In this document: positions 7,388-9,959 of the stretch, piece after piece
Numbering within the stretch: the first letter of the stretch is position 1
How the letters are laid out: the number at the start of each line of letters is the position of its first letter
Assembly (NCBI RefSeq): GCF_007671725.1
Contig: NZ_VCNM01000002.1
Location: 806,001-870,000 of the forward strand
Direction: 5' to 3'
DNA from: Halorubrum depositum
Lineage (GTDB): Archaea; Halobacteriota; Halobacteria; Halobacteriales; Haloferacaceae
DNA length: 64,000 bases
Position numbers and translations under genes: made by a program
The notes under the pieces: model-generated
Database searches by the model: none
What the model was told of the DNA's origin: nothing
What the model saw: the letters and a program-made list of their open reading frames with translations, nothing else

Positions 7388-8491
7388 ATGGAGTACGAGG
7401 AGCCGAAGTTCTTCCACGTGATGCAGTACGCGGCCGCGGCCGACGGCGACGTCATCGACATGGTGAGCGGCAACCCCGACTGGGAGCCGCCGGCCGCGCT
7501 GCGGGAGGCGCTCCGCGAGTACGCAGACCTCCCGCCCGACGCCTTCCAGTACCCGCCGAGCGAGGGGTTACTGGAGCTGCGGGAGGCGATCGCCGAGCGC
7601 CGGAACGTCGACGTCAACCGGGTCGTCGTCACCAACGGGACCGGCGAGGCGAACTACCTCGCGATGGCGCGCGCGCTCGATCGCGACGCCGGCGACGAGG
7701 CGCTGTTGATGGACCCCGTCTACCCGTACTACCCCGGGAAGGTGGACATGCTCGGCGGCGAGGCGACGCTCGTCCCGACCGAGCGCGACGGCGGGCTCGA
7801 CGTCGCGGCGATCCGAGAGGCCGCGAACGCGGACACCGCGCTGATCGCCTTGAACACGCCGAACAACCCGACGGGGGCCGTCTACGACCTCGACACGGTC
7901 CGCGAGGTCGTCGAGATTGCACACGCGGTCGACGCCTTGGTCCTCGTCGACGAGGTGTACGACCACTTCGATCTCACCGGCTCGTTCGAGTCGGCGCTGA
8001 CGCTGGACTCCGACCGCGTCATCGTCACCACCGGCTTCTCGAAGTCGATGGCGATCACGGGGTTCCGGGTGGGATACGGGGTGTTCCCCGAGGCGCACGT
8101 CGGCGACGCGAAGACGCGGCACATGCTCGTGAACGTCGCCGGACCGCGGCCCTCGCAGTACGCGGTCCACCACGCGCTCGCGGAGACGCCCCCCGACTAC
8201 TACGCGGAGGCCCGGGACCTGCTCGCGGAGCGCGCCGACGCGTTCACCGACGCGCTCGACGCAGCCGGCGCCGAGTACAGCCGCCCCGAGGGCGCTTTCT
8301 ACGTGCTCGCGCGCTTCGAGGGGTTCCCCGGGACGATGACGAACGTGAAGCGGCTGGTCGACGAGGCCGGCGTCGCGGGGATGCCCGGCGAGGCGTTCGG
8401 CTCCGCGCGCGACGAGTGGATCCGGTTCGCCCTCGTCACCCCCCGAGCCGTCGAGGCTGCGGAGCGGTTGGCCGACTACTTCGGAGAGTAA
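7388..8491 (+). CDS. class I/II pyridoxal-phosphate aminotransferase
   Basis: The 367-residue protein has the fold type I aminotransferase pattern: the substrate segment SGNPDWEPP, the cofactor segment NGTGEANY, the NTPNNPTGAVY motif, the Asp that binds the pyridine nitrogen in LVDEVYDHF, the Schiff-base Lys in TTGFSKSMAITGFRVGY, and the carboxylate-binding Arg near the end (WIRFAL). It probably uses aspartate or another amino acid as donor; the acceptor cannot be told from sequence. It stands alone, with a 395-bp non-coding element downstream. Confidence 0.85.
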   Translation: MEYEEPKFFHVMQYAAAADGDVIDMVSGNPDWEPPAALREALREYADLPPDAFQYPPSEGLLELREAIAERRNVDVNRVVVTNGTGEANYLAMARALDRDAGDEALLMDPVYPYYPGKVDMLGGEATLVPTERDGGLDVAAIREAANADTALIALNTPNNPTGAVYDLDTVREVVEIAHAVDALVLVDEVYDHFDLTGSFESALTLDSDRVIVTTGFSKSMAITGFRVGYGVFPEAHVGDAKTRHMLVNVAGPRPSQYAVHHALAETPPDYYAEARDLLAERADAFTDALDAAGAEYSRPEGAFYVLARFEGFPGTMTNVKRLVDEAGVAGMPGEAFGSARDEWIRFALVTPRAVEAAERLADYFGE

Positions 8492-8886
8492 TCGACGACG
8501 CAAGGCGGTGGCGCGTGCCTTCGAGCGCCCACCGGGCGCGAGGAGCACGCGCGAGGGAGGCGGCGGGCCGGCGCGGCTTCGCCCGCGCCGGGCCGTCCGC
8601 CGAGGCTGGGGAGGCGTGAGGCTGTGGTGTTTTGCGGTCGGGTGGGGCTCAAAGGGGCAGCCGCGAGGACGAAGCACGGCGACGGAAGCACCGCAGTGAA
8701 GGAGCGGTAGCGACTGAGCGAGGAGCGCACCGAGCCGCGCGAGTCCTCGCGGCTGGGCTTTGGAGGTGTGCTCCGTCACAGCGATTTCAACGAAGAAGAG
8801 CCGATCGGCTGGGACTTTGGAGGTCTTCACCCCCGAGCCGCAATCAACTACTTATAAACGTTCAATCGAAACGTACCGAACCGCGT
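8492..8886. other. 395-bp non-coding repeat-like element with strong inverted repeats
   Basis: No credible gene is present; possible short reading frames are Arg-rich and unlike the acidic neighbours. Three structures stand out. A 9-bp hairpin (8568-8576 with 8583-8591, loop cttcgc) lies near the upstream end. A perfect 13-bp inverted repeat, cagccgcgaggac at 8658-8670 with gtcctcgcggctg at 8743-8755, encloses 72 nt. A near-direct repeat cggctggg(a)ctttggaggt occurs at 8750-8767 and 8806-8824. The element ends in AT-rich cttataaacg (8851-8860). It resembles a dispersed intergenic repeat or structured RNA, not a promoter region alone. The flanking genes converge here. Confidence 0.6.
8658..8755. 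repeat. perfect 13-bp inverted repeat enclosing 72 nt
   Basis: Arms 8658-8670 and 8743-8755 are exact reverse complements. The enclosed segment is rich in gcg/gag and contains no good reading frame. If transcribed on either strand it would form a closed stem with a large internal domain. Confidence 0.8.
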
Positions 8887-9531
8887 CTACCCGAAGTTCT
8901 CGACCTTCGCGGCGTCGGCGTCGCCGCCGGCGGCCTCGACCGCGGCCTCGGCGTCGGCCACGAGATCGGCGAAGCCGTACACGAAGACGGTCTCGCCGTC
9001 GACCCCCGTCAGCGCCTCCGCGACCGCGACGTCGAGCGCCTCGGCGGCGTCGAGGAGGTGAATCGCGGCGCCGCGCTCTTTCAGTCGGTCCAGGCGGTCG
9101 GCGTGCGACACGTCGTCGTCGCGGTAGACGACCGCGGCCTCGGCGCCGTCGTCGAGCGCGCGCTCCGCGATGGCGACCGCCGGGCCGACGCCCGGGCCGC
9201 CCGCGATCACGACCGCACGCGGCTCGCCGTCGTAGTGCTGGTCGCCGAAGGGCCCGGAGAGCGTCATCTCGGTGCCCGCCTCGGCGTCCGCGAGGAACGC
9301 GGAGAACTCGCCGCCCTCCTCGGGGTCGATGCCGACCGTGACCTCGAACGTGTCGCCGACCGTCGGCGACGAGAGGGTGTAGAAGCGGGCGACCGACTCG
9401 CCGTCGATCTCCGTGCCGAGCTTGACGAATTGACCGGGCTCCGCGGCGAATCCGTCCGGCGCGTCGAACCGGAGGGCGTACGTGTCGCGGCCGACTTCCT
9501 CGACCGCGCTGACCGTCGCTGTCGTGTCCAT
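8887..9531 (-). CDS. FNR-like FAD/NAD(P)-binding oxidoreductase
   Basis: The 214-residue flavoprotein has a beta-barrel FAD domain (FVKLGTEI, then the FAD motif RFYTLSS) followed by a nucleotide-binding domain (VVIAGGPGVGPAVAIAE, then VVYRDDD). It lacks any Fe-S or haem domain. It likely transfers electrons between NAD(P)H and a carrier such as ferredoxin. It is divergent from korA, and a ferredoxin-NAD(P) reductase next to a ferredoxin-reducing oxidoreductase would be a logical pair. I chose the ATG at 9531, which opens directly onto the first barrel strand; an upstream codon would add eight residues. Confidence 0.78.
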   Translation of the reverse strand: MDTTATVSAVEEVGRDTYALRFDAPDGFAAEPGQFVKLGTEIDGESVARFYTLSSPTVGDTFEVTVGIDPEEGGEFSAFLADAEAGTEMTLSGPFGDQHYDGEPRAVVIAGGPGVGPAVAIAERALDDGAEAAVVYRDDDVSHADRLDRLKERGAAIHLLDAAEALDVAVAEALTGVDGETVFVYGFADLVADAEAAVEAAGGDADAAKVENFG

Positions 9532-9959
9532 ATCGCCGATCCGGCCGGCGGACACAAACGTGTTCCCGTCCGCGTCGGTGTTGCCCGCGTCTGGGACGCC
9601 GCCCGCGTCAGGGACGCCGCCCTCGTCGAGGACGTCCGGTCCGTGACGCCCGCACCGCGGGCGACCATCCGAGGACGGATCTCGTCGGCGCGCGCCCCCG
9701 GGGCGCCGGTCCGCGCCGCCGGGCGCGACCCGTGCGCGAGGACGACGCCGAATAGTTCGACGAACGTCGAAAACCGACTGCGACGAGGTGGGTCGATCGT
9801 GAGGAAACTGGAAAACGATCGTCCACTAAAAACCGATTCTGAACGAAAGTGCCATCCATATCCACCTATATTCGAGGATAGTTGAACGAACGTTGGGAAA
9901 GTCGCTGGTGGCTCCTTCCAGAAGTCTTTTGATGAGTCCGGCGAAAACTGCGTCATAGC
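9532..9959. other. 428-bp divergent intergenic region upstream of korA
   Basis: This region has no supportable gene. Its left part is GC-rich with an 18-bp tandem repeat (9583-9636). The right part is AT-richer and holds an almost perfect palindrome ttcgac-gaac-gtcgaa (9756-9771), a related copy at 9880-9895, and a 17-bp word at 9810-9826 that recurs before the halorhodopsin/halocyanin pair. It probably contains both promoters and operators of the FNR-like gene and korAB. Confidence 0.6.
9583..9636. repeat. 18-bp tandem repeat, three units
   Basis: Units at 9583-9600, 9601-9618 and 9619-9636 follow gcccgcgtc-n-gggacgcc; the first two differ at one position and the third has drifted. The array lies about 50 bp before the start of the FNR-like gene. 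Confidence 0.65.

Follow-up and report, generated by a model that had tools for sequence, protein, structure and literature searches.

A 395-bp intergenic gap of Halorubrum depositum holds one copy of what we take to be an order-wide haloarchaeal family of short, non-coding, dispersed repeats. With a rough probability of 0.6, these are non-autonomous mobile elements of a REP-, MITE- or PATE-like kind whose domains are exchanged, and whose copies are homogenised, by recombination. We favour a non-autonomous repeat that acts in folded form because there are many diverged intergenic copies, because these follow no rule of orientation to genes, because they are present in some genomes and absent from others, and because the single-strand fold is strictly kept.

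The window analysed is a stretch of 64,000 nt (contig NZ_VCNM01000002.1, positions 806,001–870,000). The element copy spans window positions 8505 to ∼8860, between two convergent genes, and starts 13 bp past the stop codon of the aminotransferase gene. Its features are as follows (window coordinates, strand, feature, basis):

7388–8491, plus strand: class I/II aminotransferase gene, left neighbour of the gap
8505–8511, plus strand: GCGGTGG, the conserved motif that opens the element (40 own-genome copies aligned)
8511–8552, plus strand: domain I hairpin, basal stem 8511–8518/8545–8552 (RNAalifold consensus; fold of copy L002)
8559–8601, plus strand: domain II hairpin (arms in the alignment; module types and linkage test)
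8602–8647, plus strand: linker, near-invariant GAGGCTGGGGAGGCGTGAGG and then a variable part ending GGGTGGG(G/A) (invariant columns of alignment A1)
8648–8766, plus strand: domain III, a long stem containing the 13-bp inverted repeat (covariance model R1, 125.5 bits, E = 2.4e-26; pair counts)
8755–8831, plus strand: 3′ tail, with the start of a 57-bp unit (GGCTGGGGCTTTGGAGGTGTTCACC...) twice, at 8755–8774 and 8812–8831 (direct repeat D1, spacing 57)
8851–8858, no strand assigned: TTATAA box closing the tail, consensus TTTATAAA (sequence read directly)
8887–9555, minus strand: FAD-binding oxidoreductase gene, right neighbour of the gap

A preliminary description of this DNA had reported a structured block in the gap, and we found that a larger single unit contains all of the structures that it named. 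The perfect 13-bp inverted repeat lies exactly where it had been placed (8658–8670/8743–8755), enclosed by arms of 23 nt (8648–8670/8743–8765) that are 83% complementary; when the gap was dinucleotide-shuffled 500 times, a perfect repeat at least as long (13 bp) arose in only 2 cases. The hairpin that it saw near the left end is the basal stem of domain I, and domain II was absent from its list. Its near-direct repeat is also present, with coordinates that were a few bases off and are corrected above. When the region 8500–8800 was folded, its stability exceeded that of 100 out of 100 shuffles (z = −3.5). The description had also seen no reading frame of normal haloarchaeal composition; our gene calls, for which a simple codon model was trained on the window, likewise placed no gene in the gap. 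R1 gave one match in the window, and no second element copy was found within it.

The consensus unit opens with GCGGTGGCGCG. Next come two hairpins, domains I and II, both of them variable, and then the linker GAGGCTGGGGAGGCGTGAGG, which is conserved and single-stranded. A variable stretch with GGGTGGGA at its end leads into domain III, a long stem of 119 nt, to which the tandem 57-bp unit is joined. The core is 250–280 nt long in most copies, too short for transposase coding. Domain I has a GA internal loop and a variable inner stem, in which RNAalifold detected double changes. Domain II is very variable in sequence and length and is swapped between copies as a module. Domain III of the aligned own-genome copies has the consensus CTCAAAGGGGCAGCC...GGCTGGGGCTTTGGAGGTGTTCACC, with a core that reads GACGCAAGCACCGCAg...GAGGAGCGCAGCGAG on the GA-rich strand. 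Its apical helix is built of 2-bp steps with tandem G.A mismatches between them, and the cap is mostly a GNA triloop.

Two alternative forms of the domain III stem were seen in alignment A2 (columns 22–31 and 89–97): a continuous stem, CGGGCGCA...TGCGCCCG, and a form with GA mismatches in a shifted register, CGAAGCACGG...CCGCGCGAG. One copy (L040:2177–2295) lacks the GGG/GGG internal loop that nearly all others show at the foot of domain III, its GGG there being paired with CCC.

Full-length units are recognisable in other genera (L078, L079, L085, L090 and L095), where the GCGGTGGCG start also occurs (e.g. L078, L085) and where domain III is found solitary behind GGGTGGGA as well. Domain III often forms back-to-back pairs ∼40 bp apart (L080, L084, L086 and L097), whose outer ends read GAACACC..GAAAGCCCC; in this inverted arrangement it resembles a MITE or a BIME.

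Pairing was counted in domain III. Among 28 own-genome copies, 98.0% of cells were paired as against 85.9% after shuffling; double changes affected 17 pairs, with 103 double-change cells as against 28 in the shuffled data, and slid controls were 28–42% paired. For 37 class-wide matches, the corresponding values were 98.3% and 71.3% paired, and 299 and 79 double-change cells; this alignment was fitted to R1 and is biased towards the structure, but its slid controls were nevertheless only 35–43% paired. Applied to the whole unit, RNAalifold counted 29 double-change pairs altogether and supported hairpin I as well as domain III.

The wobble pairs allowed us to assign the fold to a strand. On the GA-rich strand, G.T outnumbered A.C in two sets (28 to 2 and 31 to 5). 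As G.T is common and A.C is rare, the GA-rich plus strand is the folding strand. Motifs of the tandem G.A and GNA-triloop type are stable in single-stranded DNA as they are in RNA, and the apical motifs therefore cannot decide between the two.

The copies are numerous and diverged. A BLASTN search of the own genome gave at least 45 matches (40 of the 159 first-look candidates were scored), with 71–93% identity apart from the window copy itself. Forty copies were fetched with their flanks and aligned; all 40 are intergenic. With R1, a covariance model built on domain III whose E-values are rough, at least 53 domain III copies were detected in this genome at E ≤ 3e-9. The element was present in all 52 Halorubrum genomes searched, and R1 matched 222 of 292 genomes of the class, representing 62 of 77 genera. 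Genomes of other genera in distant families are also copy-rich, with at least 64 copies in G279, at least 82 in G174 and at least 93 in G172. A sample of 393 genomes from the phylum gave no match outside the order. A 40-nt pattern hit 112 stretches in named genomes; all of the 80 matches listed are haloarchaeal, from Halorubrum, Halobellus, Halorussus, Haloglomus, Natronococcus, Salinarchaeum and haloarchaeal MAGs. Viral contigs gave no match; as phage records were also without a match and only weak matches were obtained, to four haloarchaeal plasmids, we rejected a phage or plasmid origin.

The family combines many copies with one covarying structure, the marks of a dispersed structured repeat or non-coding RNA. 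The preliminary description had proposed either a mobile non-coding repeat or an RNA that is transcribed. This is supported by the strong own-genome copies, the copies in all 52 Halorubrum genomes and the massive compensatory change; the outcome was not the single-copy match without covariation that the description had named as refuting.

The copies also turn over between species. When the own genome was compared with G026 (∼86% identical), 12 syntenic sites were readable, of which 4 were filled in both genomes and 8 in one only. The site beside the aminotransferase gene holds an element in most near species, with differing hairpin modules and 1–3 tail units, and reduced remnants or nothing in others. 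No clean target-site duplication or exact ends could be fixed between the own genome and G026, since even the nearest genomes with filled and empty sites are too diverged; the single locus compared did not offer a closer pair of species. Among the full copies compared within the own genome there was no near-identical pair (maximum identity 0.90), and therefore no recent burst is visible.

The strict class-wide structure could equally reflect selection for a cellular RNA. A serious rival, possible though doubtful, is that the family is a structured RNA of a new class with a function: many loci would transcribe it, and selection would keep it for a role in the cell, e.g. the binding of a protein or of rRNA. 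Its complex structure, with a non-canonical core and dozens of compensatory changes, is kept across the class, and the tolerance of G.U but not of A.C indicates that one strand folds. Rfam at its gathering score gave no match in the window, and even at E ≤ 1 the eight copy-bearing loci searched showed nothing convincing at the element (one chance-level match, E 0.86, in L048), hence a possible undescribed class. Against this, the copies number dozens per genome, are diverged, take any orientation relative to genes and are present or absent from species to species, and an orthologous site can carry a reduced copy.

The possible promoter bears on the same question. A TATA-like sequence, TTTATAAA, lies just upstream of many Halorubrum copies, which favours the functional RNA; the window copy, however, has no upstream box. 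Because the TATA begins at −26 (PMC8707807), the upstream TTTATAAA is too close for a transcript with the whole of stem I. The start would fall near +10, within the 5′ arm of the stem, and we rejected this box as the element's own promoter.

Within the tail, the box TTTATAA is fixed at +32 nt after CTTT in most box-bearing Halorubrum copies. The HF2 halovirus has intergenic repeats of 57–58 bp with an AT-rich box, which resemble the element tail in their length, their box and their link to Halorubrum, but the HF2 motifs (e.g. TCTTTAAGTC) differ (PMC8707807). The 57-bp unit found no match in phage records. We rejected an identity of the tail unit with the HF2 promoter repeat, given the differing motifs. 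Two copies in G026 (C21, 150151 and 345288; L118 and L128) have another short sequence in common downstream, AATACCCACTCCCGCTATCGATCA or similar.

Also unlikely, to about the same degree as the functional RNA, is a new large structured RNA specific to haloarchaea, with dozens of transcribed copies per genome, that would spread as folded RNA or single-stranded DNA by a mechanism unlike those of known transposases.

We consider it improbable that the repeat is an IS200/IS605-type element, i.e. a PATE, or a REP that depends on a RAYT-type Y1 transposase for its movement. Recognition of hairpins in a single strand would fit the folded-strand bias. The PATEs of Haloquadratum have near-terminal palindromes in common with IS605-type transposons, and haloarchaeal PATEs are likewise numerous, non-coding, diverged and, when full-length, without terminal inverted repeats (PMC3119063). 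In 38 TnpB/TnpA loci we found five domain III matches. However, all five are from G021 and lie at variable distances on either side of TnpB, and the sequence after the TnpB genes bears no resemblance to the element ends (GCGGTGG... and ...GGGGCTTTNGNGGTGTTC). Moreover, there was no Y1_Tnp (PF01797) in the own genome, G172 or G279, though each genome holds at least 53 to at least 93 copies, and TnpB numbered zero in G172 and one in the own genome. With the resident enzymes missing from copy-rich genomes and the ends unmatched, we rejected mobilisation of the IS200/605, PATE or RAYT kind.

The five G021 TnpB loci (L153, L157, L161, L165 and L179) have domain III within ∼1.5 kb, and IS605-type elements may favour insertion near element copies. 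At L153 (G021:C1 near 1440790), five TTTATAA boxes ∼57 bp apart lie upstream of the TnpB gene, a longer tandem run of the element's tail unit beside an IS605-type gene.

A bidirectional transcription terminator or mRNA 3′-end stabiliser for convergent genes, suggested by strong GC-rich hairpins and by the position of the window copy, between convergent genes and close behind a stop codon, is very improbable, and we rejected it on gene context: of the 40 own-genome copies only 12 (of 39 classed) are convergent, whereas 21 lie between tandem genes (9 sense and 12 antisense to both neighbours), 6 are divergent and 1 is unclassed, and other genera have a like mixture of contexts. The convergent position, which the preliminary description had taken as a clue, is thus not explanatory, as copies occur in every gene orientation.

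Identity was 0.686 within a genome, 0.677 between genomes and 0.679 at orthologous sites, where copies are thus no more alike than elsewhere. Distances in domains I, II and III showed no correlation (Mantel r −0.05 to −0.01), but r was 0.49 between the two halves of domain III. From these sequence comparisons, we read the copies as often swapping modules, with domains I, II and III freely reassorted. One inversion between the own genome and G026 has a copy at either end, the two being inverted, and synteny between these genomes is also broken at several other copies. Copies are enriched at synteny breakpoints only to a suggestive degree (p = 0.19 and 0.058).

The free exchange of domains and the synteny breaks at copies would fit a chromosome-organising or recombination-promoting site, with hairpins extruded from DNA and kept for genome plasticity, but we give this very little credence, as breakpoint enrichment was not significant at 0.05 in either direction and ordinary homologous recombination between repeats gives an equal picture.

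Under our preferred reading of a folded non-autonomous repeat, a putative enzyme supplied in trans would recognise the folded GA-rich strand in single-stranded form, as DNA or as a transcript, and would place the unit, copied or moved, in intergenic sites. Copies already resident would then swap domains via homologous recombination, sometimes producing inversions. Three points here are inferred: the action of an enzyme in trans, selection of the fold for mobility, and transposition beyond recombination and loss.

Haloarchaea are model archaea, and this repeat occurs in most of their genera, with at least 53 to at least 93 strong copies in the richest genomes counted. It is absent from Rfam, and searches of open-access papers with sequence fragments and keywords found no description; an earlier one in a subscription journal or in ISfinder is possible. 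If the repeat is mobile, an archaeal transposition or retro-mechanism with a novel enzyme is implied; were it a functional RNA, few structured RNAs of any archaeal order would be more numerous. Under either reading, the copies are ready substrates for recombination and help to explain rearrangements between species. R1 provides a direct means to mask, count and test the repeat.

The nearest described elements in the open-access literature are the PATEs, MITEs and SMRs of Haloquadratum and the bacterial REP/BIME sequences. The latter, which are associated with RAYT transposases, are intergenic hairpin repeats that occur singly or as inverted pairs with linkers. Our element is similarly hairpin-forming, intergenic and found singly or in inverted pairs, and in both cases the folded strand matters. 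In contrast, it is ∼10 times longer and structurally complex, and the Y1 transposase is missing from three copy-rich genomes. Like MITEs and SMRs, the element is short, non-coding and dispersed, and its back-to-back domain III pairs have inverted ends; SMRs are 80–110 bp long and often target PATEs (PMC3119063). Unlike a MITE, the full-length form is asymmetric, without terminal inverted repeats, and has no parent transposon among IS200/605 elements. Although the element differs from PATEs in its larger size, its covarying structure and the lack of an IS605-type relation in the 38 loci checked, both are haloarchaeal and non-coding, have tens to hundreds of diverged copies with internal palindromes (PMC3119063), lack terminal inverted repeats in their full-length form and are too short for a transposase gene.
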